Program-made: the position numbers and the translations under genes
Assembly (NCBI GenBank): GCA_021732415.1
Contig: JAKFVC010000029.1
Coordinates: 1-35,587 of the forward strand
Reading direction: 5' to 3'
Origin: Planctomycetaceae bacterium
GTDB lineage: Bacteria; Planctomycetota; Planctomycetia; Planctomycetales; Planctomycetaceae
DNA length: 35,587 bases
Shown here: positions 1,454-34,959 of the stretch, piece after piece
Layout of the letters: each line of letters starts with the position of its first letter
Position numbering within the stretch: position 1 is the first letter of the stretch
The notes under the pieces: generated by a model
The model's database searches: none
Told to the model about the DNA's origin: nothing
The model's input: the letters and a program-made list of their open reading frames with translations, nothing else

Positions 1454-3613
<2,160 letters not shown>

Positions 3614-4710: not shown

Positions 4711-4768
4711 GGGCCCGGCGGGCACAAAATTGGCACACTCGACGAGCGAATTTCGCATCTTGATTTAG

Positions 4769-4856: not shown

Positions 4857-4909
4857 AGTAGAACGCACTGACTTTTGATTCTCGCCGTATTGATGAATGC
4901 AAGAAGAAT

Positions 4910-4977
4910 AATCTCACGCAAAGGCGCAAAGAACGAAGGGATGAATTCTTTGCGCCTTGGCGCCTTTGCGTGAGATT
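4910..4977. repeat. Inverted repeat, AATCTCACGCAAAGGCGC type
   Basis: The left arm beginning AATCTCACGCAAAGGCGC (4910) pairs with the right arm GGCGCCTTTGCGTGAGATT ending at 4977, through about 25 base pairs around a short centre. It lies in the 356-base spacer between sigma factor and kinase and has no coding content. Confidence 0.85.
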
Positions 4978-5066
4978 TTATTCCCCTTTTCCTCACACTT
5001 TGAGTTAGGAAAACTGGAACGCTTGGCACGAGCCCGCCCCCATTAACCGTAATATTGAATTCAACC

Positions 5067-17339: not shown

Positions 17340-17960
17340 TTATTTCGCTGGCTTCTTCAAATAGTCATCGCGTATGGCGTGCAATTGTTTCCAGATCGCC
17401 GCGTCGCGGGCCTGAGGTGAGACACACGCAAAAACGTAGTTGCGATCGTTCCTGGCCCAGGTCCGAATCTCCAGGTTCAGCTTCTGTGGCTTCTGCGTCG
17501 CGAACGGTTCGACCCAATTGAGCGTGCCGGCGTACTGAGTCGGCACATCCGCAGCTTTTTCGTTCGCGGCAGGCGCTGTGTCGGATTTGGCGCGTTGCAG
17601 TTCCAGCGTAAACTCGGCCGGATCGACATCCGGAAGCTTCCCATTGAGCACGGTCTTGCACAGACCTCGAAAGTATTTCAAGAACTCCTCTTTGACAACC
17701 GCATCCGTCAGCTCCGGCTTCGGCTGCAGTTCGAACACAAACGCATAGCAGAAGAAAGAATCCGACGCCGGTTTCATCATCCCGGGTGCAAACCGAATAT
17801 GTTCAAACCCTTTCAACTTCATATCCGGAGCAAACCCAGGAGGCAGCGCAATCGTTTCGCCCCCCCAGTCTTCCGGAGCGGCCAGCTTCGCAGCCTTCGG
17901 CTCTTCACCGAGCAACAACACTCCGGACATCAGCAGACTGACAGCAAATATGCGAAACAT
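17340..17960 (-). CDS. Secreted protein of unknown function
   Basis: 206 residues from the ATG at 17960, preceded by a near-perfect ribosome site (AGGAGG with a 5-base spacer), so the start is secure. The first 18 residues (MFRIFAVSLLMSGVLLLG) look like a short Sec signal peptide. The rest contains a central FFCYAFVFELQPKPELT segment, a helical stretch ending LKYFRGLCKTVLNGKLP, and a C-terminal part with NLEIRTWARNDRNYVFACVSP that reads as beta-strand. I do not recognise a family. It follows the lyase-like gene on the same strand after 105 bases and may be co-transcribed with it. Base use and gene layout look ordinary for the region, supporting a real gene. Confidence 0.75.
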   Translation of the reverse strand: MFRIFAVSLLMSGVLLLGEEPKAAKLAAPEDWGGETIALPPGFAPDMKLKGFEHIRFAPGMMKPASDSFFCYAFVFELQPKPELTDAVVKEEFLKYFRGLCKTVLNGKLPDVDPAEFTLELQRAKSDTAPAANEKAADVPTQYAGTLNWVEPFATQKPQKLNLEIRTWARNDRNYVFACVSPQARDAAIWKQLHAIRDDYLKKPAK

Positions 17961-18065: not shown

Positions 18066-18800
18066 CTAATCCTTCTCGATGAGCCGTGGCAGCATGACCT
18101 CAGCCAGCGTGGTCGCCTCGATCACGTGGTCGAAGACGATCGTCTCCGGAACTTCGATCGTGTCACGCATTAATCCGATCTGGAAGAACGCCACATTTTC
18201 GTCGAGTAACGTGGCGGTCATTGCGCGCGGCACGACTTGTTCGCCGTCGAACCAGACTTCGACGAAGCCCTTGGCGGGATCGCGCGACCACAAGACGTGA
18301 ACCGCAAAATCGTGCCAGCGGCCGGGGGTGAGCTTTCCCTTCCCCGTCCAGCGGCGCGCATAGGGAACGCGCGTGCTGTAAACAAGATCCTCACCGTGAG
18401 CCTCGAACGACATCAATTGACGCCAGCTATTTCTGGTTTCGAAATACCCGACCGAGTGAAAATCGTCCGTGAGCTTTTGCGGCAGGAAGACACTCCAGCC
18501 GAAATAACGTTCGGTCCCTTCGGCCGTCCCGGGTGGTGTGGGTTGATGTTGAAACTCGATCCGATCCAGCTTTCCGCGTTGCGCCGCGTTGGTCCCGTCG
18601 ATTCGCAAGGCGTACTTACCGGCCCGCACAGGTTCGGTCACGACCTTGACGCTGTCGGTCTTGGGAGCACCTCGCCACTGCTCGGTGGTGCCGGTTTCAA
18701 AATCCCCTCGCCAGATGACTTCGGCCCAGACTGGAAGCGCCAGCAACAACAGAGTCACCGACAGCAAACTGATGGAAACCTGATTGTGATGAGAGTGCAT
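18066..18800 (-). CDS. Secreted heparin-lyase-I-like polysaccharide lyase family protein
   Basis: 244 residues from the ATG at 18800, with AAGG nine bases upstream; an in-frame GTG at 18845 gives an unlikely longer form. A signal peptide ends near LPVWAEV (about residue 26). The mature part shows the beta-jelly-roll pattern of the Polysacc_lyase (PF14099) family: WRGDFETGTTEQWRG, KYALRIDG, RYFGWSVFLPQKL, and GRWHDFAVHVLWSRDPAKGFVEVWFDG. Family members cleave uronic-acid-containing polysaccharides by beta-elimination, but many planctomycete homologues are uncharacterised, and the catalytic residues could not be confirmed by eye. It is divergent from the DUF1592 gene starting at 18967, with 166 bases between starts, so the two may share a control region. 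Confidence 0.75.
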   Translation of the reverse strand: MHSHHNQVSISLLSVTLLLLALPVWAEVIWRGDFETGTTEQWRGAPKTDSVKVVTEPVRAGKYALRIDGTNAAQRGKLDRIEFQHQPTPPGTAEGTERYFGWSVFLPQKLTDDFHSVGYFETRNSWRQLMSFEAHGEDLVYSTRVPYARRWTGKGKLTPGRWHDFAVHVLWSRDPAKGFVEVWFDGEQVVPRAMTATLLDENVAFFQIGLMRDTIEVPETIVFDHVIEATTLAEVMLPRLIEKD

Positions 18801-18966
18801 ACGCGTTGACCTTAAATTGGCGATCGCAGGCAAAGTAGCCTTCACGCGGAGCGTGAAAGCGACTTTGGCCCTCAGGAACCATTCCGCGCTGGACGCGAGG
18901 TGTCGGTGTAGTCAGAATGAAGATCATCGCACGGTTGGATCGGTTCTATCAAGGTACGACGGGAAT

Positions 18967-21510
18967 ATGACCACCCAGCACACGCCACCGATCCGAATCC
19001 GCTCACGGCGGGAAATGCGTCTGAGCAACGGCTGCAGAACATGGCTGAGCGTCCTGATCGCCGGCGTTGTTGGTGGTAGCCTGGGGCTGAGCGGATTGAC
19101 CGCACGGGCTGCCGATCCCACAGTCAAGCCGCTCGACGACTCTACCCAGAAGTTCTTAACACAGCACTGCCAGGCATGCCACATGGGCCCCAAGCCCAAG
19201 GGCAACTTCCTCCTGGAAAATCTCTCGCAGGACTTTGCCGACAAGGAGAACCGACAGCGGTGGCTGGCCGTGCTCGAGCAGATTAAAGCGGGCACCATGC
19301 CGCCGAAAGCCAAGCCCCGACCTCCAGCCCCGGAAGTCCAGACTTTAGTCGATTGGATCAGCGGACGAGCAGCCACCGAAGAATCGGCCCGGCAGGCCGC
19401 GCAGGGCAGGGTGGTCTTGCGGCGGCTGAATCGTGCCGAGTACGCGAACACCGTGCGCGACTTGCTCAAGGTCGAAGTCGACTTGAAGGACCTGCTGCCC
19501 CTGGATACGTCAACCAACGGCTTCGACAACAACGCCGACGCCCTGCACGTCTCGTCCTATCTGATGGAGAACTACCTCGAAGCCGCCGACCGCGTTTTGG
19601 ACGCCGCCATTGCCAGCGGTCCGCGACCCAACATCATCAACAGACGCTTCGACATTAAGGAAGAAAAAAGTGTCAAGCCCACCGGCAGCGTGTATCGCCA
19701 CGTGGACGACGGCGTGGCGATCTTTAGCTCGTGGGTTTCGGCCAACATTCAGGTCACGCTGTGGAACTTTCGGACTCGCGAGCGCGGCAAGTATCGCTTT
19801 CGCATTTCGGGCTATGGCATGCAAAGCGACAAGCCGCTCAATTTTCATGTGGTTGCCGGCACGCTGACCGCCGTGACTGAGGAGCGTCTGATCGACTACT
19901 TCTCCGTGCCTGCGAATCAACCAACCGTGGTCGAATTCGTCGAACAACTGGAAGCTCGCAATTGCATTCGGATCGTCGCGGACGGACTGGGAGCCCTGCC
20001 GCCGGAAGTCGAAAAAGTCGGTGCGGAGAACTATAAGGGACCCGGCCTGGTTGTACAGTGGGTCGACATCGAAGGACCGCTGCTCGACTCGTGGCCGCCC
20101 CCCAGCCATCAACAGCTCTTCGGAAATCTCAAGCAGATCCCCGCCCCGCTTCCCGACGCTCCCCACCGCCGAGAAGTCGTCTCGGAGCAACCATTGGTCG
20201 ATGCGGAACGAATTCTCCGGGACTTCACGCGCCGGGCCTTTCGACGGGCTGTGACGGATGATGACATCAAGCCGTTTCTGGATCGAGTCCGAGTCCGATT
20301 GGATCAGAATTACTCGTTTGAGCAAGCGTTGCGAGTCGGTCTGAAAGCCATCCTGGTCTCACCCCATTTCTTGTTTCTGCGAGAAAGAACCGGGACCGAA
20401 AACCCTGCCACCCCGCAGAGCGACAAGACACCGCCCGTCCGACCAGCGGCCCTCGACGACTTTGCCCTGGCCAGCCGGCTCTCTTACTTCCTGTGGAGCT
20501 CCATGCCGGACGAGGAACTGCTCCAGCTTGCCGAACAACGCAAGCTGCGGGAACCCGACGTGCTGCGCCAGCAGGTCGAACGGTTGCTGAGCGATGCCAA
20601 AGCGAAAGCCTTCACCGAGAACTTCGCCGGTCAGTGGCTGGGACTGCGCGCGATCGACGATACGACGCCCGAACGCATGCTCTATCCGGAGTATGACGAC
20701 ATCCTCAAGGTATCGATGGTCAAGGAGACGCTCCTGTTCTTCGAGGAAGTCTTGAAGAACGACTTAAGCCTGACAAACTTTGTGGCCTCCGACTTCAGCA
20801 TGCTCAACGGCAGGCTGGCCAAGCTCTATGGCATCCCCGATGTGGAAGGGTTGGACTTCCGCAAGGTCACGCTGCCGCCAGACAGTCACCGCGGTGGAGT
20901 CTTAACGATGGCCAGCGTGTTGAAGGTGACGGCCAACGGCACCACGACTTCGCCCATCCTGCGTGGGGCCTGGGTGCTCGACCGCATCCTGGGGACACCG
21001 CCGCCGAAGCCGACCGTCGATGTCGAAGCCGTTGAACCCGACATTCGCGGCGCCACAACAATCCGCAGTCAACTGGCCAAGCACCGGGAGATCGGCGAGT
21101 GCGCCAGTTGCCATGTGAAAATCGATCCACCGGGATTTGCCCTGGAGAACTTCGACGTGATGGGTGGCTGGCGGGATCACTACCGCAGCGTCCGCGAAGG
21201 CGAGCCGGCAATCGTGAATGGCCGGAGGGTGCGCTATATGAACGGCCCGCCCGTTGACGCAGCCGACGTTCTGCCAGACGGCCGGAAATTTCAAAACATC
21301 GACGAATACAAACAACTGTTGCTGGCCGATAAGGACCAACTGGCCCGTGCGCTGGCGGAAAAGCTGCTAAGCTATGGCACGGGCGCGGCCCCCACGACAA
21401 CCGACCGGCCAGAGATCGAGGCCATCGTCAACCGCGTCCGCGACAAGCAATACGGCTTCAGATCATTGGTTCATGAGATCGTGCAAAGCCCCGTTTTTCA
21501 AAGCAAATAG
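18967..21510 (+). CDS. DUF1592-type planctomycete multidomain c-type cytochrome (module 1)
   Basis: 848 residues from the ATG at 18967. The ATG at 19015 is an alternative that places the signal peptide (ending near LTARAAD) closer to the start. Domains in order: a cytochrome-c-like segment with heme motif C68-QA-C71-H72 and a downstream GTMPPKAKP; DUF1587 (about 147-214, GRVVLRRLNRAEYANTVRDL); DUF1595 (about 412-473); DUF1592 (about 495-623, FALASRLSYFLWSSMPDEEL); DUF1588 (about 633-733, with a second heme motif C712-AS-C715-H716 followed by KIDPPGFALENFD); DUF1585 at the C terminus (about 775-848). The protein is exported and should bind two hemes. No reaction is established for the family. 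A DUF1552 gene follows 27 bases later, the usual partner. Confidence 0.93.
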   Translation: MTTQHTPPIRIRSRREMRLSNGCRTWLSVLIAGVVGGSLGLSGLTARAADPTVKPLDDSTQKFLTQHCQACHMGPKPKGNFLLENLSQDFADKENRQRWLAVLEQIKAGTMPPKAKPRPPAPEVQTLVDWISGRAATEESARQAAQGRVVLRRLNRAEYANTVRDLLKVEVDLKDLLPLDTSTNGFDNNADALHVSSYLMENYLEAADRVLDAAIASGPRPNIINRRFDIKEEKSVKPTGSVYRHVDDGVAIFSSWVSANIQVTLWNFRTRERGKYRFRISGYGMQSDKPLNFHVVAGTLTAVTEERLIDYFSVPANQPTVVEFVEQLEARNCIRIVADGLGALPPEVEKVGAENYKGPGLVVQWVDIEGPLLDSWPPPSHQQLFGNLKQIPAPLPDAPHRREVVSEQPLVDAERILRDFTRRAFRRAVTDDDIKPFLDRVRVRLDQNYSFEQALRVGLKAILVSPHFLFLRERTGTENPATPQSDKTPPVRPAALDDFALASRLSYFLWSSMPDEELLQLAEQRKLREPDVLRQQVERLLSDAKAKAFTENFAGQWLGLRAIDDTTPERMLYPEYDDILKVSMVKETLLFFEEVLKNDLSLTNFVASDFSMLNGRLAKLYGIPDVEGLDFRKVTLPPDSHRGGVLTMASVLKVTANGTTTSPILRGAWVLDRILGTPPPKPTVDVEAVEPDIRGATTIRSQLAKHREIGECASCHVKIDPPGFALENFDVMGGWRDHYRSVREGEPAIVNGRRVRYMNGPPVDAADVLPDGRKFQNIDEYKQLLLADKDQLARALAEKLLSYGTGAAPTTTDRPEIEAIVNRVRDKQYGFRSLVHEIVQSPVFQSK

Positions 21511-21537
21511 TCGTGATAGCGCACCAGGGATTATTCC

Positions 21538-22809
21538 ATGCAATTCAATCGAAGGCGTTTTCTGCGTACTGCCGGTGTGTCGCTGGCCTTACCCTGGCTC
21601 GACGCCTTCTCGCTGGCCCGCGCGGCGACGGGTGCCGCTCAGCCACGCCGCAGAATGGTTTGTATCTGCACGCCACTCGGATTGCATCCTCCCCATTTCT
21701 TCCCCGAGAAAACCGGCGCGGACTACGAGCTAACCCCCTACTTGGAATTGCTCAAAGACTACCGTGATCAGTTCACGGTCATCTCCGGTTTGTCACATGC
21801 GGGGATGAGTCCTGGCTTCGCCCATCAAGCCTCGGCCAGTTTCTTAACCGGCGTGCCAGGTGCGGGCCGACCCGGCTTTCGCAATGCGATTTCACTCGAC
21901 CAATTCGCAGCCGAGCACATCGGCGGCCAGACCCGTTTCCCCAGCCTGATTCTGTCGGGCGAGGGTGCCGGCCTATCGTGGACTCGCACCGGGGCACTCG
22001 TCCCCGCGGCCACCTCACCCTCGCGCGTGTTCGCCCGGATGTTCCTGGCGGGAAGTACCGAAGAGGTCCAGTCCCAGGTGCGTCGGCTGGAGGATGGCCG
22101 CAGCATTCTCGATGATGTCCGCGATCAAGCAAAATCGCTGCGGTCCGACCTCGGTACTGGCGATCGCGAAAAGCTCGACGAATACCTCACCAGTGTCCGC
22201 GAACTCGAGCAGCGATTAGTCACTGATGAAGGCTGGACCAAGACCCCCAAACCCAAGGTGGATGCCAAGCAACCCGAGGACATCCCCAACGCGGCCGATC
22301 TGATCGGTCGAACGCGGTTGCTGTTTGATGTCACGCACCTGGCCCTGCAAACCGATTCGACGCGGCTCATCACGATCATGCTCGCCGGCTCGACATTCGC
22401 TCCGCCGATTCCGGGTGTGACCAAGGGACACCATGACCTGTCGCATCACGGCAAGGATCCGGGAAAACTTGAAGAGCTCAAAATCGTAGAGCAGGAGACC
22501 ATGAAGACCCTGCGCGATCTGCTCGCCAAGCTCAAGCAATCGCAAGAGGACGGCGGAAGTCTGCTCGACCGCACGACGGTGTTCCTGGGCAGCAACCTGG
22601 GTGACGGCAGCAGCCACAGCGTGAAGAACCTGCCCGTCCTGCTGGCGGGTGGCGGCTTCCGACACGGCCAGCATCTGCCGTTTGATCCACATAACCCGCC
22701 GCCGTTGTGCAACCTCTACGTGAGCATGCTCCAGGCAATGGGCATCGAGACCGACAAGTTCGGCACGAGCACCTGTACACTAACTGGGTTGGAACTCAAA
22801 CGGACTTGA
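21538..22809 (+). CDS. DUF1552 protein with Tat-type signal (module 1 partner)
   Basis: 423 residues from the ATG at 21538, 27 bases after the DUF1592 gene and surely in the same transcript. The N terminus has a twin-arginine motif (RRRFLR, 5-10), a hydrophobic stretch and ARAA, so it is likely exported folded. Family motifs include CTPLGLHPPHFFPE, a helical middle region (EEVQSQVRRLEDGRSILDDV), HLALQTDSTRLIT, the His-rich GHHDLSHHG (297-305), and a C-terminal NLYVSMLQAMGIETDKFG. The conserved His and Asp residues suggest metal binding, but no activity is established. The general pairing with DUF1592 cytochromes suggests a joint periplasmic task. Bases downstream contain two repeat elements. 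Confidence 0.92.
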   Translation: MQFNRRRFLRTAGVSLALPWLDAFSLARAATGAAQPRRRMVCICTPLGLHPPHFFPEKTGADYELTPYLELLKDYRDQFTVISGLSHAGMSPGFAHQASASFLTGVPGAGRPGFRNAISLDQFAAEHIGGQTRFPSLILSGEGAGLSWTRTGALVPAATSPSRVFARMFLAGSTEEVQSQVRRLEDGRSILDDVRDQAKSLRSDLGTGDREKLDEYLTSVRELEQRLVTDEGWTKTPKPKVDAKQPEDIPNAADLIGRTRLLFDVTHLALQTDSTRLITIMLAGSTFAPPIPGVTKGHHDLSHHGKDPGKLEELKIVEQETMKTLRDLLAKLKQSQEDGGSLLDRTTVFLGSNLGDGSSHSVKNLPVLLAGGGFRHGQHLPFDPHNPPPLCNLYVSMLQAMGIETDKFGTSTCTLTGLELKRT

Positions 22810-22820
22810 CGAGGCCGTTG

Positions 22821-22840
22821 CCCGACTCTCTGAGTCGGGA
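22821..22840. repeat. Perfect hairpin CCCGACTC-TCT-GAGTCGGG
   Basis: An 8-bp perfect stem with a 3-base loop, 11 bases after the DUF1552 stop codon. It belongs to the GAGTCGGG family. It may help end transcription but lacks a T-run. Confidence 0.7.
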
Positions 22841-22892
22841 GTATCAAGAACAAAAAACTCGACTCGAATGCCAGGTTCGACTGATCTCAACT

Positions 22893-23013
22893 TTTTGAAC
22901 CACGAATCACACAAATGACACGAATCGGAGTCCTGAAAACGACATTCGAAGGGGCTGTAGTCGATCACCCTTCGTGAGCCATTTCTTAATATTCGTATGA
23001 TTCGTGGTTCAAA
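22893..23013. repeat. Inverted repeat, GAACCACGAATCACAC type
   Basis: The left arm TTTTGAACCACGAATCACAC (from 22893, running on to GACACGAAT at 22925) pairs with ATTCGTATGATTCGTGGTTC (from 22990). The two arms match apart from a short stretch missing on the right. The same core forms a perfect inverted repeat at 31386-31461. Confidence 0.85.
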
Positions 23014-23094
23014 ACAATGGCCTTGATCGATCAATGAACCATGAGCTCCAAAATCCCCTTGGCGTTCTCAGCACGAAATAAAAAATGGAGTGAT

Positions 23095-24324
23095 ATGAAG
23101 ACAACGATGATGTTGGTATTGGTGGGTCTGGCATTCGCGTTCGGCACTGCGGCCGGGGCCGATACGATGACATGGCCCCCCGAACGGCACAAGGAGTCCG
23201 TCTTCACGGAGCGTAAGCTGGAAGTCTTCCAGCACGGAACGAAAGCGGAATGGGGTTACTCCGCGCCTCAAACCGATACGTTCCTGGTGCTCCATCCCAA
23301 GCAGGCACGCTCGAACGCTCCGCTGTATGTCGTGCTGCATTCGGCGGGACATGATGTCAACTCGTGCCTGGCCTGCACGGACAAAGTCGGCAACCACGAT
23401 ATCTATCATGCGCCGGCCGATTTCTATGCGCTCTACCTTGATTGTAAGGCCAACAAGGGAGACTGGTGGTGGGGCGGCAATAAGTATCAAAACGCGGAAG
23501 TCAGTCCCACGGACAAGCGAGTCATCGACACGGTCAAGTGGGTGATCAAACAATACGGCATCGACGAAAACCGAGTCTATCTCGCGGGCAACTCCATGGG
23601 CGGCAGCGGGACACTCGGCATCGGCATGCGGCATGGAGACGTTTTCGCCGCGATCAAGGCCAACGTCCCCGCCAAGGTCGAACATGTTTCCAACCGCATG
23701 TACTTCACGTCACCAACTGTCCCTGCGGATGTGAAAATCCCCGACCCTCCCATCGTGGTGGATTATTCGGCTCCCAACGATGGGTGGTCGAAAGGCCACG
23801 ACTTTTATGCCAAGGTGATGAACGAACGGAAGTACCCGTTGTTCTTCTATTGGGGTCCCTTCGGCCACGCGAACAATCACGAACAAATCATGAAGGTCAA
23901 TGACCTGATCAATTCGTTCGACTGGCTCAACGTGAAAAAGAACGAGGCCTACCCTGTATTTACCAACGCCTCAACGAATGATGCCTTGCCGTGGCCAGAT
24001 CAGCTGACCGTTAAGAAATCCGGCCAGATCAACGCGTTCTTCCGTTGGAAGAACATCTCAGACACACCGAGTTCGATGGAGATCTCACTGTTCCTCATCG
24101 CCCCGTCGGAACTCAAGACCACCTTCAAGATTCCCTCTGAGGCCACGGCAGACGTCAGCTTGCGGCGGCTGCAGATGCTAAAGGTCGCCCCCGGCGAAAC
24201 AGTCAAATGGACATTCGGCACCGCCAGCGGAGAGACCAAGGCTGACGCCACCGGCTGCATTACGATTCCCGGTCTCAAGATCACTTCGGAGCCGGTGACA
24301 TTGACCATTAAGGAGGCACTCTAA
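23095..24324 (+). CDS. Secreted alpha/beta-hydrolase (esterase-like)
   Basis: 409 residues from the ATG at 23095, with GGAG four bases upstream; an ATG at 23041 is in frame but lacks a ribosome site. A signal peptide covers about 1-22 (MMLVLVGLAFAFGTAAGA). An alpha/beta-hydrolase core follows: LYVVLHSAGHDVNS near the oxyanion region, nucleophile S167 in AGNSMGGSG, a probable acid in VVDYSAPNDGW, and a probable His in GPFGHANNHEQ. It resembles PHB-depolymerase/prolyl-oligopeptidase-type esterases. The last 120 residues form a separate beta-rich domain (INAFFRWKNISD, VKWTFGTASGETK). The likely job is hydrolysis of an ester, perhaps on a polysaccharide, in the periplasm. It lies between two DUF1592/DUF1552 modules, but no operon link is proven. 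Confidence 0.82.
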   Translation: MKTTMMLVLVGLAFAFGTAAGADTMTWPPERHKESVFTERKLEVFQHGTKAEWGYSAPQTDTFLVLHPKQARSNAPLYVVLHSAGHDVNSCLACTDKVGNHDIYHAPADFYALYLDCKANKGDWWWGGNKYQNAEVSPTDKRVIDTVKWVIKQYGIDENRVYLAGNSMGGSGTLGIGMRHGDVFAAIKANVPAKVEHVSNRMYFTSPTVPADVKIPDPPIVVDYSAPNDGWSKGHDFYAKVMNERKYPLFFYWGPFGHANNHEQIMKVNDLINSFDWLNVKKNEAYPVFTNASTNDALPWPDQLTVKKSGQINAFFRWKNISDTPSSMEISLFLIAPSELKTTFKIPSEATADVSLRRLQMLKVAPGETVKWTFGTASGETKADATGCITIPGLKITSEPVTLTIKEAL

Positions 24325-24354
24325 ATCGAGGGGTGCCGTAAGGCGCCGGACAAT

Positions 24355-24415
24355 CCCCCCGTGGCCGACGCTGCCAGAGTTGGAGGACAGACGCTGGCAG
24401 CGTCTGCCACGGGGG
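24355..24415. repeat. CCCCGTGGCCGACGCTGCC palindrome between convergent genes
   Basis: Arms CCCCCCGTGGCCGACGCTGC (24355 onward) and GCAGCGTCTGCCACGGGGG (to 24415) pair with one or two mismatches around a 16-base centre. It lies between the esterase gene and the oppositely oriented DUF1552 gene, starting 31 bases after one stop and ending 8 bases from the other. Confidence 0.85.
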
Positions 24416-24422
24416 CCGGACA

Positions 24423-25706
24423 TCAAGCCGTAATTCCCAACTCCGACACCGCCCCTATACTGGCACCAAATTTGTCCGCCTCAATGCCCATCTGCTGCAG
24501 CATGCTGACATACAAATTCGACAGCGGCATATTATTCTTACGATCAAACGCCACGTGCCCTGCATGCTTGAAACCACCGCCTGCCAGAATGATCGGCAGG
24601 TTGTCCCCCGAGTGCGAAGACGCGTTCCCGAGGTGACTCGCATGGAGCACCAGGGTCTGGTCCAGCAAGGGACGTCCGCCGTCATCGGTGGCCTTCATCT
24701 TGGCCAGAAACCCGGCAAACAATTTCATTTCGGCTTCTTCAATCGTCGCCAGTTGCTGCAGTTTGGTTTCATCCTGACCGTGATGTGACGCATCATGATG
24801 AGTCAAAGTGATGCCGTCCATCTGCAGGTTTTCCTGGTGTGACCAGTGATTCACTGTAATCGCGCGGGTCGAATCCGTCTGCAACGCCAGATGTACCAGA
24901 TCGAACCATTGTCGTTCGCGATCGATCATCCGCCGGGGATCTTCAGCGAACAGTTTTGCATCCGCTTCTGACACTTTCGGCTTCGGTCGGCGAACCCACG
25001 CCTCATCCTGCTGCAGGCGTTGCTCAGCTTCGCGGATCGACGTGAGCATCAGGTCCAGGCGGCGGCGATCTGCAGGACTGAGCGACTTCGACAGGCCACG
25101 AGCCTGATCCCGGACTCCATCCAGGATGCTGTTGCCGGTCGCAATCTTCTGAATTTCCTGCTCGACCTCAGCTGGCGTCCCATCGATAAACAATTTCTTA
25201 AAGACCCCTTTGATGGAACCCTCACCGGGCACAGCCATACCCCGACGATTCCACGACAGATTATTGCTATCGCCCAGCACCAGCGACGCGAACCGCGTCT
25301 CCGCCCCCACGCGCGCCGCGATTTCCTGATCGAGCGAAATCGTGTTCTTATGGTTGTTCCAGTCTTCAGCAGAAATGCCCGTCAGCAGGGCTTTATCCGT
25401 ATGGTGCCCACCCCCATAGCCCAGATGCGACATCCCCGAAAACAACGTGAAGTCCTGACGAAAGTCCTCGAGTACCTTGAGGTACCGCGTCGACTCGTAG
25501 TCTTTGCCCGCCTTCTCCGGAAACAAGTATGGAGTGTGCAGTCCGAGGGACCGGCACATGAGCAGAATCCGCTTGGGCCGCAATGCGACCGCTTTCTGCT
25601 CAGCCCGCAGCCCCACGGGCAGCATGGCATCCAGCAGCGGCAACCCGATGCATACTGCGCCCGATCTCAAGAAGGAACGGCGATTGTGTCCGTGGAACTT
25701 TGTCAT
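24423..25706 (-). CDS. DUF1552 protein with Tat-type signal (module 2 partner)
   Basis: 427 residues from the ATG at 25706, with GGAG six bases upstream. The N terminus NRRSFLRSGAVCIGLPLLDA is a Tat-type signal. The motifs parallel the module 1 paralogue: LLMCRSLGLHTPYLFPEKAG, EVEQEIQKIATGNSILDGVRD, HLALQTDSTRAIT, HHDASHHGQDE, and NLYVSMLQQMGIEADKFG. The two paralogues share family motifs but differ widely elsewhere, so this is not a recent duplication. It lies downstream of its DUF1592 gene on the minus strand. The 55-base gap between them carries a palindrome, which could separate translation or stability of the two messages. Export and pairing with the cytochrome are likely; biochemical activity is unknown. 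Confidence 0.92.
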   Translation of the reverse strand: MTKFHGHNRRSFLRSGAVCIGLPLLDAMLPVGLRAEQKAVALRPKRILLMCRSLGLHTPYLFPEKAGKDYESTRYLKVLEDFRQDFTLFSGMSHLGYGGGHHTDKALLTGISAEDWNNHKNTISLDQEIAARVGAETRFASLVLGDSNNLSWNRRGMAVPGEGSIKGVFKKLFIDGTPAEVEQEIQKIATGNSILDGVRDQARGLSKSLSPADRRRLDLMLTSIREAEQRLQQDEAWVRRPKPKVSEADAKLFAEDPRRMIDRERQWFDLVHLALQTDSTRAITVNHWSHQENLQMDGITLTHHDASHHGQDETKLQQLATIEEAEMKLFAGFLAKMKATDDGGRPLLDQTLVLHASHLGNASSHSGDNLPIILAGGGFKHAGHVAFDRKNNMPLSNLYVSMLQQMGIEADKFGASIGAVSELGITA

Positions 25707-25721
25707 AGCGGTCTCCAACTT

Positions 25722-25750
25722 CGTGGCCGAGGCTAGCAGCGTCGGCCACG
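25722..25750. repeat. CGTGGCCGAGGCTAGCAGCG palindrome in operon spacer
   Basis: CGTGGCCGAGGCT and AGCAGCGTCGGCCACG form a nearly perfect hairpin. It fills most of the 55-base gap between the DUF1592 stop and the DUF1552 start on the minus strand. Same family as 15218, 15502, 24355 and 29483. Confidence 0.8.
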
Positions 25751-25761
25751 GGTTCGGCAAA

Positions 25762-28224
25762 TTACTTGTTCAGAAATATCCGACTCTGCACTATGTCATG
25801 CACTAACGACCGAAAGCCGTACTTGTTCGCCCGGGACTTCGCAACCAACTGCTCAACGACTTCACGATCAGCGAACTGAATTTCCGCGCCAGTACCATAA
25901 ATCAACAGTTTTTCCACGAGATTCCGCGCGAGCTGATCGGGATCCTGCAGAAGAATCTGCTTGTATTGATCGATATCCCGGAACTCGTGGCCGTCCGCAG
26001 TGACGCCCCCTTGTTCCACATCCAGGCCACGAACCACTTCGCGACCCGGATAATTGGCCAGCTTAACCACAGCCTCGCGCTTATAAACCGTTCCTCGGTA
26101 GAAATCTCGCCAGCCGCCAATGACGTCGAACGACTCGAGAGCAAACCCCGGCGGATCAATGTGTCGGTGGCACGCGGCACACGATTCAATATTGCGATGC
26201 TTATCGAGTTGCTGGCGCACCGTCGTCGCGCCGCGGATATCGGGCTCAATCGCCGAGACATTCGCCGGCGGGGGAGACGGCGGTTGGCCCAGAATGCGAT
26301 CGAGCACCCATTTGCCCCGCAACACGGGAGACGTCTTCGTGCCATCAGCCGTGACCTTCAAGATGCTCGCGTGCGTAAGCACTCCACCACGATGACAATC
26401 CGGTGGCAGTTTGGTGAATCGCATCTCCCCACCGAAAACACCGGGAATCCCATAGTGCTTCGCCAGCCGCTCATTCAGAAACGTCCAGTCGGAGTGCGTG
26501 AAATCGGTCAGACTGCGATCGTGCTGCAGAATTTCCTCGAAGAACCGCTGCGTCTCGTTCGGCATCGACCAGAACAAAAAGTCGTCGAATTCCGCATACG
26601 CTTGGGGGTCTGGCGTCGTATCGTTGATCTGCCGCAGCCCCAGCCATTGGCCGACAAAGTTCTCCGTAAATCGTCGAGACCGCGGGTCCTTCAGCAATCG
26701 CTCCACCTGGGCCCGCAACACCACGGGCTGGGTCAACTCGCCTTTTGCAGCCAGTTGCAGCAACTCGCGATCAGGTAACGTCGACCACAAAAAATACGAC
26801 AACCGCGCGGCCACAGCATAATCGTCCAACGCTACGGCCTTGCCTTGCCGCGAGACTAACGGTTCGGTGAGAAAGAGGAAGTGCGGCGAACAGAGCGCAG
26901 CCCGGTATCCAAGCAGCATTGCGTCCTCAAACGACAGCTTCTTATCGAGCGCAGCGAGCACGATCTGCACATAGTAGTCCTGCAACTCGGCACTCACCGG
27001 CCGACGGAACGCCAACGGCAGAAACGACTGCATCAATCGCTTGGCATCCGCCCGCGGATCCGCAGATTCCACGCGCAGCCAGTCCCCTTTGTAGCGCGAC
27101 TTCTGCGGCAGGTCGCCAAACAAGTTCAAATAGCCGACTGCCGGAAAGGGATCCAACGGACCTTCAATCTCCAGCCACTCAATGGCCAACCCCGGCCCGG
27201 TATACTGTTCGAGCGGCTTGCCTTGGCTCAGTTTGCGGTCGGCAAATTGACGCTCGGTCGGCAACGACCAACCCACCACATCAACCAGATCGTTGTTACC
27301 GAGATCACATTCCTGCTCGATCACAGTCGGCTTGTCAGCGGGAGCATCGCGCACCGCCAGGACACTATTGCCGTCACGTCCCCACGGTTTACCCGCCGAA
27401 AACCGCACCGGCAGCGGCTGGCCCTCCGTCCCCACCGCAAACACCGACGCCCGCACCATGTAGCGACCAGGCTGTGGTACGGTAGCCGTACCGATCGGAA
27501 TGTGCCCATAGGGAATCGCGTGAACAAACAAATTGTCGCCAGCCACCCGTAGAGAAACTCCCAGCATGGCATTCTTCGACTTGGCGAGAACTTCTTGTCC
27601 GGTGAGGCGAGTCTTGATCTTCGTCGGCACCTGCCGCGGGATCACCGTCTTCAGCGCCTTCTCGGCCGCATCCTGATAACGCAGCAAATGGACGGACGAC
27701 ACATCCAGAACCTCGCTGACATTATCGAACCCCGCCGCGACCGTATCCTCAGGCAATAGATCTCGAACTGATACCTGCTGCCCCAGCAAATCGCGGAGTG
27801 TCGTTTCATACTCAGTGATGTTCAACCGGCGCAGCACCACACGGCCATCCAACTGCTGCTTGGCGAAAGACACTGCGTGCAAACGTTGCCGCAACCATTC
27901 CGCCATTCGCTGGCGTTCCGCGGGCGCAGGCTGCGGTTCGCCCTTCGGCGGCATCTGGCTGAGCTGCAGTTTGTCGTACACCGGAATCCAGCGAGCAGAA
28001 TCCTCGTCCTTCGAGGACAGCGATTCCAACGACAACTTCGCCGTAGCCGTGGCGTCATCGTGACAGCTCAAACAGTACTTCTTCAGAAACCCATTAAATT
28101 CCGTCCGGGACTGCCCAGTAACGGCCGGCTCAGCCGCCTGACCGTGACCAGGGAACGCGATGATGAAAACGAGAGACGCAGCGACGAACAGGCCCTGCAT
28201 TCGTTTCTGAACTAAGTTGACCAT
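25762..28224 (-). CDS. DUF1592-type planctomycete multidomain c-type cytochrome (module 2)
   Basis: 820 residues from the ATG at 28224. A signal peptide ends near GHGQAAEP (about residue 31). The heme motif C51-LS-C54-H55 starts a cytochrome-c-like domain containing SQMPPKGEPQP. DUF1587 begins at about 127 (GRVVLRRLNITEYETTLRDL), followed by DUF1595 (RLMQSFLPLAFRRPV), DUF1592 (YAVAARLSYFLWSTLPDREL, GQWLGLRQINDTTPD), DUF1588 with a second heme motif C682-AA-C685-H686 and HIDPPGFALESFD, and a C-terminal DUF1585 ending in VHDIVQSRIFLNK. Order and spacing equal module 1 at 18967. The DUF1552 partner follows directly. The protein is exported and is expected to bind two hemes; its substrate or electron partner is not known. 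Confidence 0.93.
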   Translation of the reverse strand: MVNLVQKRMQGLFVAASLVFIIAFPGHGQAAEPAVTGQSRTEFNGFLKKYCLSCHDDATATAKLSLESLSSKDEDSARWIPVYDKLQLSQMPPKGEPQPAPAERQRMAEWLRQRLHAVSFAKQQLDGRVVLRRLNITEYETTLRDLLGQQVSVRDLLPEDTVAAGFDNVSEVLDVSSVHLLRYQDAAEKALKTVIPRQVPTKIKTRLTGQEVLAKSKNAMLGVSLRVAGDNLFVHAIPYGHIPIGTATVPQPGRYMVRASVFAVGTEGQPLPVRFSAGKPWGRDGNSVLAVRDAPADKPTVIEQECDLGNNDLVDVVGWSLPTERQFADRKLSQGKPLEQYTGPGLAIEWLEIEGPLDPFPAVGYLNLFGDLPQKSRYKGDWLRVESADPRADAKRLMQSFLPLAFRRPVSAELQDYYVQIVLAALDKKLSFEDAMLLGYRAALCSPHFLFLTEPLVSRQGKAVALDDYAVAARLSYFLWSTLPDRELLQLAAKGELTQPVVLRAQVERLLKDPRSRRFTENFVGQWLGLRQINDTTPDPQAYAEFDDFLFWSMPNETQRFFEEILQHDRSLTDFTHSDWTFLNERLAKHYGIPGVFGGEMRFTKLPPDCHRGGVLTHASILKVTADGTKTSPVLRGKWVLDRILGQPPSPPPANVSAIEPDIRGATTVRQQLDKHRNIESCAACHRHIDPPGFALESFDVIGGWRDFYRGTVYKREAVVKLANYPGREVVRGLDVEQGGVTADGHEFRDIDQYKQILLQDPDQLARNLVEKLLIYGTGAEIQFADREVVEQLVAKSRANKYGFRSLVHDIVQSRIFLNK

Positions 28225-29117: not shown

Positions 29118-29482
29118 GATTTAGTTCCGAAGCTCGTGCGTCATTCGGAAGAAGTGGCGTACGTGCTGCCTGCATCCTGGTAATTGAGCGGGTGCTGACT
29201 CGTCAGTCTCACTGAGAGGCCGGTGCAGGGGACTAACGCACTTACCGCGCCTGAAATGTCTTCGAGTTGATTTTTACCCCCGAGCCACGCGAATCGTTTT
29301 GATTCTGGCGATAGCAGCTTGAAGATGTACCGAGAATGCCGAGTTTTCCGACTTCTTAATCAGAGAAGAGACCGGTCAGCCCGACGATCTAGACCGGCGA
29401 GACGCGATTTCAACCGAGATTCGCAACATCGCACGTTGTAACAATTGCAAGAACGACAAAGAGAATGGATGTTTTTACAATG
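29118..29482. other. Divergent intergenic region
   Basis: Between the leftward low-complexity gene and the rightward GH20-like gene. It should hold both promoters, but no boxes could be assigned with confidence and no gene or repeat was recognised before the palindrome at 29483. Confidence 0.5.
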
Positions 29483-29512
29483 CCCCCGTGGCGGACGCTG
29501 CTAGCGTCCGCG
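29483..29512. repeat. CCCCCGTGGCGGACGCTGCT palindrome upstream of the glycosidase gene
   Basis: CGCGGACGCTAGCAGCGTCCGC-type self-complementary sequence with a CCCCCGTGG lead, 34 bases before the start codon of the next gene. Same family as 24355 and 25722. It would lie in or near the leader of the message. Confidence 0.75.
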
Positions 29513-29545
29513 TCCAGACAATTAAATCGATCGAAGGACCCTACC

Positions 29546-31240
29546 ATGCACGCTCGCTTGTCATGTCTGCTCAGTGTCCTCTTTCTCTCCCTCCTGCAAC
29601 CCGCCCAAGCCGAACCTCCCACTCGCCGCTGGCTCTACCTCCAGCAAAATCTGCAAGTCGCCGAAAACCTCCCCAAGATCGAAGACATCCTCCGCCGAGC
29701 CGCCAAGGTCGGCTACAACGGCGTCGTCCTGGCCGACTATAAACTCAACGTCCTCGATCGAGTCCCCAAGCACTACTTCCAAAACGCCGAACGCTTCAAA
29801 TCCCTCTGCGAGGAATTGAAGCTCGAGATCATCCCCACGGTGACCCCGTTCGGCTACAGCTCCGGCATCCTGGCCCACGACCCTAATCTCGCCGAGGCCC
29901 TCCCCGTCAAGAACGCGCCGTTCCTCGTCCGCGATGATGTCGCGTTGCCCATCGACGGCAACAAGAATCTCGTCCCCGGCAGCTTCGAAGAGTTTCAAGG
30001 CGATCAGTTCGCCGGCTGGCGTTTTCAAGATGAGCCGGGTGCCGGGACCTACGTCGACACCAAGGTCACCCACGGAGGCAAGGCCGCCCTGCGGATCGAG
30101 AACGCCCCGGGAACCTCAGGCAATCGTCGGATCCACAAACGCATCCCCTCCCGCCGCTGGACTCAATTTCACGCCTCCGTCTGGATCAAAACAGAAGGCT
30201 TCGAATCGGCCGGTGAAACAAAAATGTTCGCCATGAACCCCGAAGGCCGGGTTCTCTCCCACAGCAACCTGGGTGTCCAACGGACCCAGGACTGGACCCA
30301 GCACCACGCCGTCTTTAACAGTCTCGATGGCGACTACCTTCAGTTTTATGCAGGCACGTGGGGCTGCCAGGGAGGCAAACTCTGGATGGACGACCTCCAA
30401 CTAGTCGAAGAGCCCTTCGTCAACTTAGTCCGCCGCCCCGGCTGCCCGCTGGTCGTCCAGAACGCCGATGGCACCCAGACCTACGAAGAAGGCCACGACT
30501 ACGTCCCCCTGGCCGACCCGCAATTGGGAACAGTCCCCTATGCCGGCGAGTTCAACATCTATCACATCCCACCACAGCTCAAGTTTCCCAAGGTCTCACG
30601 TATCCAGAACGGACAGAAGCTGCAGGTCAGCTACTATCATGCGGTCACAATCTACGACAATCAGGTCCCATGCTCTCTCACCGAACCCAAAGTGTTTGAA
30701 GTCGTCGACCACCAGATCCGTCGAGTGGAAAAACTCTTCGCCCCCAAAACATTCTTCCTCAGCCACGACGAAATCCGAGTCGCCAACTGGAGCCAACCCG
30801 ATCAACAGGCTGGGAAAAAGGCCGGCGAGGTCCTCGCCGAAAACGTTCGCCGTTGTGTAAAAATCATCCGCGAGATCAACCCTGAAGCCCAGTTGTGCAT
30901 CTGGAGCGATATGTTCGATCCCCATCACAACGCCGTCAACAATTTCTATTTAGTGAACGGAGACCTGGTCGGATCCTGGGAAGGCCTCCCCAAAGACATG
31001 GCGGTCACCAATTGGAACAGCGGCAAGCCCGACAAGAGCCTCCCCTTCTTCGCCAACCGCGGCCATTCCCAAGTCCTGGCCGGCTACTACGACGGAGCCC
31101 CCGAAGACATCCGAAAATGGCAAGCCGCAGGGAAGGGCCTGAAGGGAATCAACGGCGCCATGTACACAACCTGGAAATCAAACTTCACCGACCTGGAGAA
31201 ATTCGCCGAAGCCGCCTGGGGTGGTACCGGAGCGAAGTGA
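29546..31240 (+). CDS. Secreted GH20-like glycoside hydrolase with carbohydrate-binding-like insert
   Basis: 565 residues from the ATG at 29546, with AAGGA seven bases upstream; an open-frame extension to 29465 runs through a palindromic repeat and is rejected. A signal peptide spans about 1-22 (LSCLLSVLFLSLLQPAQA). A TIM-barrel start follows (ILRRAAKVGYNGVVLADYK, LEIIPTVTPFGYSSG). Residues about 140-290 form a beta-sandwich insert like CBM4/9 modules (ENLVPGSFE-type start, AALRIENAPG, QFHASVWIKTEG, GKLWMDDLQLVE). The barrel then resumes with FFLSHDEIRVANW, where the D408-E409 pair corresponds to the Asp-Glu catalytic pair of GH20 enzymes, and continues with CIWSDMFDPHHN. Exo-hexosaminidase-type activity is plausible but unproven. 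It seems to be transcribed alone. Confidence 0.75.
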   Translation: MHARLSCLLSVLFLSLLQPAQAEPPTRRWLYLQQNLQVAENLPKIEDILRRAAKVGYNGVVLADYKLNVLDRVPKHYFQNAERFKSLCEELKLEIIPTVTPFGYSSGILAHDPNLAEALPVKNAPFLVRDDVALPIDGNKNLVPGSFEEFQGDQFAGWRFQDEPGAGTYVDTKVTHGGKAALRIENAPGTSGNRRIHKRIPSRRWTQFHASVWIKTEGFESAGETKMFAMNPEGRVLSHSNLGVQRTQDWTQHHAVFNSLDGDYLQFYAGTWGCQGGKLWMDDLQLVEEPFVNLVRRPGCPLVVQNADGTQTYEEGHDYVPLADPQLGTVPYAGEFNIYHIPPQLKFPKVSRIQNGQKLQVSYYHAVTIYDNQVPCSLTEPKVFEVVDHQIRRVEKLFAPKTFFLSHDEIRVANWSQPDQQAGKKAGEVLAENVRRCVKIIREINPEAQLCIWSDMFDPHHNAVNNFYLVNGDLVGSWEGLPKDMAVTNWNSGKPDKSLPFFANRGHSQVLAGYYDGAPEDIRKWQAAGKGLKGINGAMYTTWKSNFTDLEKFAEAAWGGTGAK

Positions 31241-31260: not shown

Positions 31261-31609
31261 AGTTTTTAGCCACGGATTAACACAGATGAAACACGGATTG
31301 GGTCAGCGTATGTAATTGGTTGTCGTGCTGGCGGTGCGCTTAGAGTCTTTAACGAAACCCCTTGTCATACGAACTAGCTGTTCCTATTCGTGTCATTGGT
31401 GTGATTCGTGGTTGATGAATTCCTAATCAATAGAACCACGAATCACACCAATGACACGAATTAGGTCCCAGCGAGAGCCATTCTGTGATTTGTTGCACGG
31501 TTTCTTGGTAGGAGTTTTGTTAGCGAATCTGATGACGATTGCAGAGACAGCGTGACTCTTACCTTGTCTGAATCCGTGTTTTATCTGTGTTAATCCGTGG
31601 CTAAAACTC
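31261..31609. repeat. Nested inverted repeats between convergent genes
   Basis: Outer arms 31261-31299 (starting AGTTTTTAGCCACGGATTAA) and 31571-31609 are inverse copies over about 38 bases. Within them, 31386-31413 and 31434-31461 form a perfect 28-bp inverted repeat of the ATTCGTGTCATTGG type around a 20-base centre. The inner repeat shares its core with the element at 22893. The whole spacer between the glycosidase and dihydrolase-like genes is this structure. Confidence 0.9.
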
Positions 31610-31629: not shown

Positions 31630-32460
31630 TTACTTCCAAACCGCCCCCTCCTCACCGTCCAACCTCAAAGTCAAACACTTAGCACTCCCACCCGACTTCA
31701 AGAACTCATCCAGCGGAGTTGCGTGCGTCTGATATCCGTGGGCCTGCAGATCGGCCTCCAACTGCGGGCAGCCGCTATTCATGACGACGTGCTTCCCGAC
31801 GACAACCGCATTGCAAGCAAACCGAGTCGCCTCGTCATCGCCAACGGGAATCAGCGTCGGTACGGCATTTTCGATGGCACTCCGCCCGTAGGCATCAAAT
31901 GCCGCCGGATAGTACAACGCCTCGGTCGGACTCAACGGACAGAAGCACGTATCCAAGTGATAGTACCGCTCGTCCACTAACTGTAAGGGAATGACGCGGC
32001 AGTGCAGATCTTTCCCTAACCACTGCAGCGCGTGCGCATCGCTCCGCACGATATAGCCGCCGAATAGTGTCTCGCCACAATACAGCGCATCCCCGGCCCC
32101 TTCGAAATTCCAGGGTTCCGGCGGCAGGCGGGTTTCAAACGCATTAGCCTGAAACCAGGCATCATTGACGGGAGTCTCACCCTGCCGCGGACCATGTCGA
32201 AAGCGCGACAGATAAGCCCGATCCTTCCAAATCAGCGCGGCATTCGCGGTAAACACCAGATCGGGCAATCCGGGCACAGGATCCATCAACTCGATCGCGG
32301 CCCCGACACTTTCCAGCAACGCCTTCAGATCACGCCACTGCTGCCGAGCCGTCGTGTAGTCGGCATTGATCTCTTTGTGCATCCACGGATTGATTTCGTA
32401 TTCAATCCCAAAGTAATCCGGCGGGCACATCAGTATTCGCGGCTGCGGATGATCCATCAT
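31630..32460 (-). CDS. Arginine dihydrolase-like enzyme (ArgZ/AgrE N-terminal domain type; guanidino-modifying superfamily)
   Basis: 276 residues from the ATG at 32460 (GGGAGG four bases upstream; a second ATG follows directly). The sequence closely follows the first domain of cyanobacterial ArgZ/AgrE: RILMCPPDYF, INPWMHKE, DLVFTANAAL, FEGAGDALY, VDERYYHLDTCFCPL, YYPAAFDAY, FACNAVVV and EFLKSGGSAKCLTLRL. Likely catalytic residues are E120, D124, H168 and nucleophile C262. Known ArgZ enzymes convert arginine to ornithine, ammonia and CO2. Related dimethylarginine hydrolases give citrulline, so that activity cannot be excluded. The residue N73 in TANA matches an asparagine I recall as important for the dihydrolase reaction. 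The protein ends after this domain, lacking the ornithine-cyclodeaminase-like half of AgrE. It is cytoplasmic and has no operon partner of arginine metabolism. Confidence 0.82.
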   Translation of the reverse strand: MMDHPQPRILMCPPDYFGIEYEINPWMHKEINADYTTARQQWRDLKALLESVGAAIELMDPVPGLPDLVFTANAALIWKDRAYLSRFRHGPRQGETPVNDAWFQANAFETRLPPEPWNFEGAGDALYCGETLFGGYIVRSDAHALQWLGKDLHCRVIPLQLVDERYYHLDTCFCPLSPTEALYYPAAFDAYGRSAIENAVPTLIPVGDDEATRFACNAVVVGKHVVMNSGCPQLEADLQAHGYQTHATPLDEFLKSGGSAKCLTLRLDGEEGAVWK

Positions 32461-34087: not shown

Positions 34088-34890
34088 CGAAACCCCATCC
34101 GACTCCGCTCACCAATTGTCTCAGTCCCCAGCGAGAATTCTCAAGATTTTCGAGAAAACTCTAGACAAATTAGCCGGATTCTCTGGACACAATGCTGCAG
34201 CCGCACCCGTCGAGTCGTAACTGCATTGAGTCCCAGCAGTTTCGAACTTCGACCGATGCGGCTCGGAAAGACTCACCGGCAACACTTTCCCCAATCCCAA
34301 CTGTCCGCGGTTGCTCACACCTGCCCAGTCTAACGCAATCTTTATCTCACGGGGGAACTTTGCCCGCCACCTTACGTCAAAGCGACCAACGAACCCTAGA
34401 CTTCGATCCTACAATGGTGGTTACAACCCAGCTCAGCCGCTGCTCGAACTGGGGCGGGCCAATCAGTCCTGTGAACGATCAGACACGCCAGTGTACTCCC
34501 ATTGAGATCCGCTCGCTGATACGAGCCCCCTCAATGGGAATTCTGTTTACAGGAGAGTGGGCATTTCTATTTCCAGTTGATATTGCAAGGTTGCAATTGT
34601 GAAACATCCGATCCAGGACTCACGCGAGTCAATAATTCTCGCCTTCTCCGATCCGTTAAGGTGCGACCCCAGCCTCCGCCGAGACAACCAGCCGTCGACT
34701 ACGGGCATCAACAGTTGCAGCGACGCCACACCGTACCGCGGCTGGAGCGCCCGTTTCGGCTCCCTCCTCGCCAGTTTCGTCGCCCCCATCTCCCCCGACA
34801 TCTGCGGCCTCCCCAACCGCCACGGCGGCCTCCCCGTCAGCCAACTCCGCCTCCTGCCAGGCTAAGCAACCCTCCAGAGTCGCCCCGTTG

Positions 34891-34912
34891 TAGCTTGACT
34901 CTCCGAGTCGAG
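34891..34912. repeat. TAGCTTGACTCTCCGAGTCG hairpin
   Basis: CTTGACTC-TCC-GAGTCGAG pairs over about 8 bases. Same family as 34064. It lies 48 bases downstream of the small leftward gene. Confidence 0.65.
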
Positions 34913-34959
34913 CACTCGTTCCAGGTACTCCGCCGAACGAGCCACCACGGACCGCCCCC

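Follow-up and report, generated by a model that had tools for sequence, protein, structure and literature searches.

Paired di-heme cytochrome and DUF1552 genes in a planctomycete: a putative extracytoplasmic redox system with a candidate link to carbohydrates

What do two diverged copies of a cytochrome–DUF1552 gene pair do when they face each other around an esterase-like gene, with a polysaccharide lyase on one flank and a GH20-like gene on the other? This arrangement is found in a stretch of 35,587 nucleotides from a Planctomycetaceae bacterium (contig JAKFVC010000029.1), referred to here as the window, which is contig C85 of a 9.87 Mb assembly of 350 contigs. Each pair, or module, joins a DUF1592-type di-heme cytochrome gene to a DUF1552 gene, and an earlier sequence-only reading suggested that both modules and their neighbours may form one substrate-specific locus. 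The proposal made here, to which a probability of slightly under 0.4 is assigned, is that each module encodes a two-component extracytoplasmic redox enzyme, in which a metalloprotein exported by the twin-arginine translocation (Tat) route and a Sec-exported di-heme cytochrome would act together on a sugar. The locus is one unexceptional case of a two-gene system that is widespread and poorly understood. Some planctomycetes and Verrucomicrobia, groups commonly associated with polysaccharide breakdown, contain many such pairs, and the predicted folds, candidate metal ligands, candidate glycan-binding domain and linked lyase point to specific residues and a class of substrates for experiments.

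The coordinates and gene content of two modules facing each other around an esterase-like gene had been read correctly. The modules converge, and in both the cytochrome gene precedes the DUF1552 gene, with an intergenic gap of 27 bases in module 1 and one base in module 2. Matches to the module genes lie far above chance, with E-values as low as 2e-85 (DUF1552) and 1e-47 (DUF1592). The module 1 cytochrome consists of a CBB3/PSCyt1-like heme domain, DUF1587, a jelly-roll, DUF1595, DUF1592, DUF1588 and DUF1585, and both window cytochromes display the domain order PSD3-PSD5-PSD4-PSCyt3-PSD2. Both also carry two CxxCH heme motifs; those of module 1 are CQACH (residue 68) and CASCH (residue 712), those of module 2 CLSCH (residue 51) and CAACH (residue 682). 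The two DUF1552 proteins give full-length matches to the PF07586 profile and contain its HxxSHH motif as HDLSHH and HDASHH.

Pairing of the cytochrome and DUF1552 genes is the rule, with exceptions within the module 1 clade. The genome that contains the window encodes 19 DUF1592 genes (one of which accounts for two of the 20 matches) and 19 DUF1552 genes, which according to coordinates and gene maps pair one to one on the same strand with at most one gene between them; the cytochrome comes first in 15 pairs and DUF1552 in four. Every one of these 19 cytochromes has two CxxCH motifs and the full set of five planctomycete-specific domains. Among cytochromes of at least 700 amino acids, 84 of 95 have two heme motifs and 11 have one, several of the latter starting late and two rows of the count being the same contig from two sources. 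In a phylum sample of 15 genomes (this one and 14 further), six, this one included, contain both families and the other nine contain neither. All 46 DUF1552 genes of the six adjoin a DUF1592 gene on the same strand, as read from coordinates, and one unpaired DUF1592 match remains in G107.

The module 1 type was followed further in the best 80 of 534 relatives in a species-genome collection, found with a module-1-like DUF1552 protein. A cytochrome gene lies directly upstream on the same strand, less than 3 kb away, in 66 of these loci, and anywhere in the fetched DNA in 69, a DUF1549-type match in L174 being left uncounted; six of the 14 loci lacking an upstream cytochrome start no more than about 1.1 kb from the beginning of a contig. 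The partners also diverge in step. Distances among cytochromes and among DUF1552 proteins correlate (r = 0.895) over 18 of the 19 pairs of the genome, the DUF1552 protein of L115, cut at a contig start, having been left out, and none of 9999 permutations reached so high a value; the partners are inherited as units.

Some related loci contain insertions between the two genes. In L143, positions 6534-6947 encode a four-helix protein of the 23S-rRNA-intervening-sequence type between cytochrome and DUF1552, and a gene of equal length occupies the same place in L163 (6472-6885), where it is known by its length and position. Between both module 1 genes of L124 (4634-5717), a nucleotidyltransferase gene overlaps a weakly HEPN-like gene in a toxin-antitoxin-like manner, and L137 (4326-5349) contains genes similar in size and place, known by these features.

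The DUF1552 protein of module 1 models as an alkaline-phosphatase-superfamily fold, an assignment that is new here. AlphaFold models of the two module 1 proteins were built with 47 and 44 further sequences, the DUF1552 model reaching a mean predicted local distance difference test (pLDDT) score of 88.6. In comparisons of this model with solved chains by VIA, 789 of 1000 chains scored Z of at least 5. The phosphatase PafA (5tj3) aligned over 271 residues with Z 18.1 and a root-mean-square deviation (rmsd) of 3.9, and was followed within the top 50 rows by nucleotide pyrophosphatases/phosphodiesterases (NPPs) and sulfatases with Z of roughly 16 to 18 across some 230 to 270 residues. Foldseek by itself gave a sulfatase as its best match (E 2.5e-5), and a sequence-level search of solved structures with DUF1552 returned nothing meaningful for a phosphatase fold. 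DUF1552 is homologous to another family, DUF1501, as indicated by a profile comparison with hhalign (probability 98.2, E 4.2e-14, 366 columns), a kinship that is likewise new here. DUF1501 itself matches solved structures weakly: its best hit is a lipoteichoic acid synthase at E 0.038, ahead of a sulfatase at E 0.055.

In the phosphatases and sulfatases of this superfamily a Ser, Thr or Cys nucleophile stands some nine residues before a TG, an Asp follows the first strand, D-x3-H a middle strand and D-H/N a later one, and there is a final His. A histidine (H96 in module 1) stands at or one residue from the expected place of the nucleophile in 105 of 114 DUF1552 gene calls; of the remaining nine, four show the histidine by eye and five are truncated calls. 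Two alignments, one with 20 and one with 48 DUF1552 sequences, show three further histidines without variation: H299, H303 and H360. Neither the Ser/Thr/Cys nucleophile nor the acidic ligands are conserved, in a comparison by motif without superposition. Because an invariant histidine stands at or next to the nucleophile place and the acidic positions are unconserved, DUF1552 is read, by motif, as having lost the hydrolytic centre and as holding a histidine metal site in its place. The module 1 protein begins with a Tat-like RRRFLR, and the pattern RRx[FVLMAT][LIMAV][RKHQS] occurs within the first 60 residues of 78 of 114 DUF1552 calls, several of the others being truncated. This N-terminal motif looks like a Tat signal, which fits export of DUF1552 after folding around a cofactor. 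The window cytochromes start with a hydrophobic, Sec-like segment, judged from the sequence without a signal-peptide program. The earlier description of exported, heme-containing, paired modules is thereby borne out at the level of sequence.

The module 1 cytochrome offers a possible contact with glycans. Its residues 223-372, between DUF1587 and DUF1595, model as a previously unannotated jelly-roll, reported here for the first time, that is closest to carbohydrate-binding modules (CBMs) of families 36 and 35. By VIA the domain aligns with the CBM36 chain 7ay3 over 118 residues (Z 14.3, rmsd 2.3), and the top rows are CBM36, CBM35 and CBM6 chains. CBM60 is a relative of CBM36, and both bind xylan in a calcium-dependent manner. 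A paralog in the same genome, L101, contains a Pfam CBM60 match just before DUF1595 (50.2 bits against a cut-off of 28.2).

Linkage to a lyase provides the other indication of a carbohydrate role. The gene divergent from module 1 (its likely start is near position 18800) encodes a PF14099 polysaccharide lyase of the PL20 type, the family of the glucuronan lyase A structure 2zzj. A profile of four orthologs of the flanking lyase matches 2zzj with E 5.7e-7, the C-terminal third alone being aligned, which makes 2zzj a sequence relative. Close orthologs (at least 73% identity) occur in five of 99 surveyed genomes, own included, and the lyase stands beside module 1 in the window and in G003, G098 and G083. 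Among the 80 module-1-type loci the lyase-bearing ones are L123, L124, L132 and L134, with L134 and G098 seemingly representing one and the same contig. The order differs from locus to locus: the lyase is divergent from module 1 in the window and in G003, and downstream on the same strand in G083, G098 and L132; in L124 it is upstream, separated by an esterase gene, and in L123 it follows some 1.8 kb downstream on the opposite strand. Because the linkage recurs in different orders, a functional link between lyase and module 1 is better argued than shared ancestry of one order. Upstream of the lyase, at 17340-17960, the window encodes a 206-residue protein. A 46% homolog of it is encoded at 3547-4215 in the Verrucomicrobia locus L126, directly upstream of module 1 and preceded, as in the window, by a PQQ-propeller gene.

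Genes directly upstream of module-1-type cytochromes could be read in 42 loci with a called upstream gene, eight of the 80 having been skipped where the target gene was uncalled. A BD-FAE-type esterase takes this place in five loci (L118, L119, L124, L172 and L185), one of these proteins having been scanned against Pfam and the others assigned by sequence clustering. In six Verrucomicrobia loci (L143, L159, L160, L163, L165 and L168) the place is taken by a lyase-like gene, one product having been scanned and the rest being 86-92% identical to it; its matches to the Cip1 and PL14 lyase families of Pfam lie below cut-off, and 'lyase-like' is a lead. Seven sequences of this protein matched no solved structure at E 0.1, and comparison with the PF14099 lyase by hhalign detected no kinship (E 0.32). 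A pectate lyase precedes the cytochrome in one locus, L188. Elsewhere the upstream genes encode an amidohydrolase, an aldose epimerase, a beta-lactamase-like protein, DUF1501, another module or unrelated products. With the recurrent PF14099 lyase, the upstream esterase and lyase-like genes and the CBM36/35-like domain, a carbohydrate role is moderately supported for module 1, and the earlier interpretation is in this respect partly borne out.

Modules 1 and 2 are, by sequence, old paralogs of separate clades. Gene order and heme motifs are shared as first described, and the divergence then noted amounts to 45% identity between the cytochromes and 46% between the DUF1552 proteins. Module 1 is more similar to two other modules of the same genome than to module 2, whose own nearest relatives belong to other genomes. 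A 96-row cytochrome tree, made by a quick LG+G4 search and containing many long deep branches, places module 1 in a clade of 47 rows and module 2 in one of six, each with a Shimodaira–Hasegawa-like approximate likelihood ratio (SH-aLRT) support of 100. Local tandem duplication is rejected on account of these separate supported clades together with the closer relatives in the same and in foreign genomes. A second cytochrome or DUF1552 gene is present in 12 of the 80 module-1-type loci, against about two expected by chance (an author estimate from some 20 modules per 8 to 10 Mb). Unlike modules thus tend to cluster, yet the combination of module 1 with module 2 is kept within the genus only.

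The remaining neighbours were followed with module 2 and the lyase through the 99 genomes by reading the stretches around matches. Esterase orthologs occur in nine genomes, own included, and among the eight others a module lies alongside only in the same-genus G003, in stretches some of which are short (5.9 kb in G017) or at a contig edge (in G001 and G009, where the gene lies close to the start of its contig). The esterase was accordingly rejected as a module component beyond the genus, its linkage to modules being seen within the genus only. The closest relatives of module 2 are in G003, G086, G098 (two) and G078, and outside G003 the stretches read around them, one of just 3.4 kb, contain no module 1, esterase or GH20-like gene. 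The GH20-like gene has matches in 13 genomes, own included, and among the loci read adjoins module 2 in the window and in G003; three loci read in other genera, from 11 genomes with matches, have no module nearby. One joint system of five genes is accordingly not supported, since in the stretches read the GH20-like gene, the esterase and module 2 share a neighbourhood within the genus only.

In the mechanism proposed, DUF1552 would be exported folded through Tat with a metal bound by H96, H299, H303 and H360 (module 1 numbering), invariant histidines that lie, by motif, near the places of the nucleophile and metal ligands of phosphatases and sulfatases. The protein would bind a sugar or uronate, and the jelly-roll of the cytochrome would anchor the complex to a glycan. 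The cytochrome would link DUF1552 to the respiratory chain by electron transfer, in the simplest case for sugar oxidation; in the alternative direction it could reduce an O2-activating metal. For module 1 the adjacent lyase may cut a uronic-acid polymer and so supply the substrate, module 2 would as a different paralog serve another substrate, and the esterase between them would be an independent neighbour at the level of the genus. A wider version of the proposal is doubtful: that DUF1552 and its sister DUF1501 are all-histidine metal oxidoreductases on an alkaline-phosphatase fold, partnered with a CBM-bearing di-heme cytochrome and forming a new respiration-linked extracytoplasmic class of glycan-oxidising enzymes, of which certain planctomycete genomes encode about twenty copies and in which module 1 is devoted to products of a glucuronan-type lyase.

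Several observations weigh against the redox proposal. We infer the redox chemistry of the modules, and their redox activity, metal and substrate are putative; the clustering of the four histidines is likewise putative, the models containing neither heme nor metal. Foldseek TM-scores for DUF1552 are at most 0.42 in the first 25 rows, the fold being taken from VIA. A jelly-roll fold does not prove sugar binding, jelly-rolls being common, and Foldseek alone on the cytochrome returns a mixture of them, tumour necrosis factor-like folds included, with weak E-values. Pfam and profile searches find no CBM by sequence in either window cytochrome, CBM60 is matched in one of the 19 cytochromes of the genome, and the jelly-roll profile compares weakly with the CBM60-bearing paralog (E 0.001, probability 21.6). 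The PF14099 lyase stands beside module 1 in just four of the 80 related loci, and in the same-genus G002 it lies apart from module 1. Neighbours of the other 17 modules of the genome are mixed, the 40 scanned comprising sulfatases, GDSL and alpha/beta hydrolases as well as ankyrin, kinase, regulator and amidohydrolase genes. Eight of the 80 loci (L122, L138, L171, L174, L176, L182, L196 and L197) have no cytochrome anywhere in the stretch despite more than 5.9 kb of upstream DNA; their DUF1552 genes are possible orphans, or their partners lie elsewhere in the genome.

Three other explanations compete with the redox enzyme. That the whole 13 kb region from lyase to GH20-like gene forms a single polysaccharide utilisation locus for one substrate, close to what the sequence-only reading had put forward, is quite improbable. 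It would account for the gene order of the window being kept in G003, over three contigs that map consecutively from the lyase on, and for the excess of second module genes in related loci. It does not agree with other genera, where the stretches read around module 1 are free of the esterase, module 2 and the GH20-like gene, nor with the placement of the two modules in different supported clades. DUF1552 might instead have kept hydrolase activity of a phosphatase or sulfatase-like kind, the cytochrome serving as redox sensor or scaffold. The predicted fold would suit such an enzyme, as would the sulfatase genes that adjoin or sit near several modules, but the nucleophile position holds no conserved Ser, Thr or Cys, an invariant histidine being there or one residue off, and the expected acidic ligands are unconserved by motif; this alternative is judged unlikely.

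The modules could also serve electron transfer or envelope upkeep apart from carbohydrates, their hydrolase neighbours reflecting a hydrolase-rich genome, an explanation that is rated as somewhat unlikely. The mixed neighbourhoods and the scarcity of the PF14099 lyase at related loci speak for it. Of just three PF14099 matches in the 9.87 Mb genome, one nevertheless adjoins module 1, a linkage that is found again in four arrangements; the lyase-like gene in six closely related Verrucomicrobia loci and the esterase in five others, each directly upstream, are also difficult to reconcile with it.

In freshwater Verrucomicrobia, PSCyt3 genes have been linked to a family of unknown genes, and a role in carbohydrate metabolism was suggested (PMC5615132). 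That PSCyt3/PSD system resembles the present one in its kind of cytochrome, in the conserved partner alongside and in the CBM domains of some members; it differs in that the main-text passages of the paper contain no fold, pairing statistics or lyase linkage and leave the function open. Both DUF1552 and DUF1501 are counted in the full text of that paper, yet neither name appears in its main text. A results table on stress transcription in Rhodopirellula includes one DUF1552 gene (PMC2754498). The literature search returned no paper on planctomycete cytochromes together with carbohydrates, and the absence of described biochemistry remarked on earlier agrees with the open-access papers searched, in which none was found for the modules.

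Among known families, DUF1501 with PSCyt2/PSD1 (DUF1549/DUF1553) constitutes a parallel planctomycete pair. The DUF1501 protein of the window also starts with a Tat-like twin arginine, and in L114 a DUF1501 gene adjoins a PSCyt2/PSD1 gene. DUF1501 differs from its homolog DUF1552 in its motifs, WDxHG and GRxH, and in its cytochrome partner. The alkaline phosphatase superfamily (PafA, NPPs, sulfatases) shares the overall predicted fold of module 1 DUF1552, whereas DUF1552 has, by motif, histidines for the nucleophile and acidic ligands, and a heme partner encoded alongside. CBM36, CBM35, CBM6 and CBM60 resemble the jelly-roll of the module 1 cytochrome, with Z up to 14.3, whereas the window cytochromes lack a sequence-level match to them.

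Table 1. Coordinates of the features of the locus in the window, with the basis of each assignment.
Feature	Position	Strand	Basis
PF14099 (PL20-type) polysaccharide lyase	18066..18845	-	Pfam 98.5 bits, cut-off 29.9
Module 1 di-heme cytochrome	18967..21510	+	Five domains, all above Pfam cut-offs; model pLDDT 83.3
Jelly-roll domain inside module 1 cytochrome, without Pfam name	19633..20082	+	Residues 223-372; predicted fold closest to CBM36/CBM35/CBM6
Module 1 DUF1552 protein	21538..22809	+	PF07586 287 bits, cut-off 30; model pLDDT 88.6
Alpha/beta hydrolase (PHB-depolymerase-like esterase), signal-like N-terminus	23041..24324	+	Weak Pfam matches
Module 2 DUF1552 protein	24423..25760	-	PF07586 223 bits, cut-off 30
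Module 2 di-heme cytochrome	25762..28224	-	Same five planctomycete-specific domains as module 1
GH20-like protein	29465..31240	+	Partial weak match, 23.8 bits, cut-off 22.3

The flanking and intervening genes were also named correctly, with differing clarity (Table 1). The lyase is a firm match, and the GH20-like assignment is weak and partial, covering positions 119-261 of a profile of 348. The secreted hydrolase between the modules corresponds to an alpha/beta hydrolase with a signal-like N-terminus, whose Pfam scores barely exceed the cut-offs (Peptidase_S9 27.4 against 22.6; Esterase_PHB, PF10503, 24.3 against 23) and which fails the curated NCBIfam cut-offs for polyhydroxybutyrate (PHB) depolymerases (48.7 bits against 150 and 34.5 against 107.85). 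It starts 231 bases past the end of module 1. A hairpin with perfect 8-base arms, CCCGACTC TCT GAGTCGGG, lies within 22817-22847 just 3' of the module 1 DUF1552 stop, and because of this position the esterase may be either on or off the module 1 transcript. The hairpin sequence is repeated intergenically at 4797-4827, 22817-22847 and 34890-34920, CCCGACTC TCT GAGTCGGG being the middle copy. A scan of the window for promoter-like sites gave 10 against 3.5 expected and for terminator-like sites 14 against 11.6, counts that were not used as evidence.

A short repeat, ACGAATCACAC-AATGACACGAAT, has copies at 22897-22925, 31386-31413 (inverted) and 31433-31461, which bracket the block of esterase, module 2 and GH20-like gene and could have moved or inverted it. 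Elsewhere in the window, a likely regulatory pair at 4039-7502 comprises an extracytoplasmic function (ECF) sigma factor and, after it, a Ser/Thr kinase that has tetratricopeptide repeats. A giant repeat protein of 2023 residues at 8441-14509 contains some 20 bacterial immunoglobulin/cadherin-like domains with a repeat period of 276-279 bases. Adjoining the DUF1501 gene, positions 31630-32460 encode a protein resembling arginine dihydrolase or dimethylargininase (NCBIfam E 1.5e-82, below curated cut-offs).

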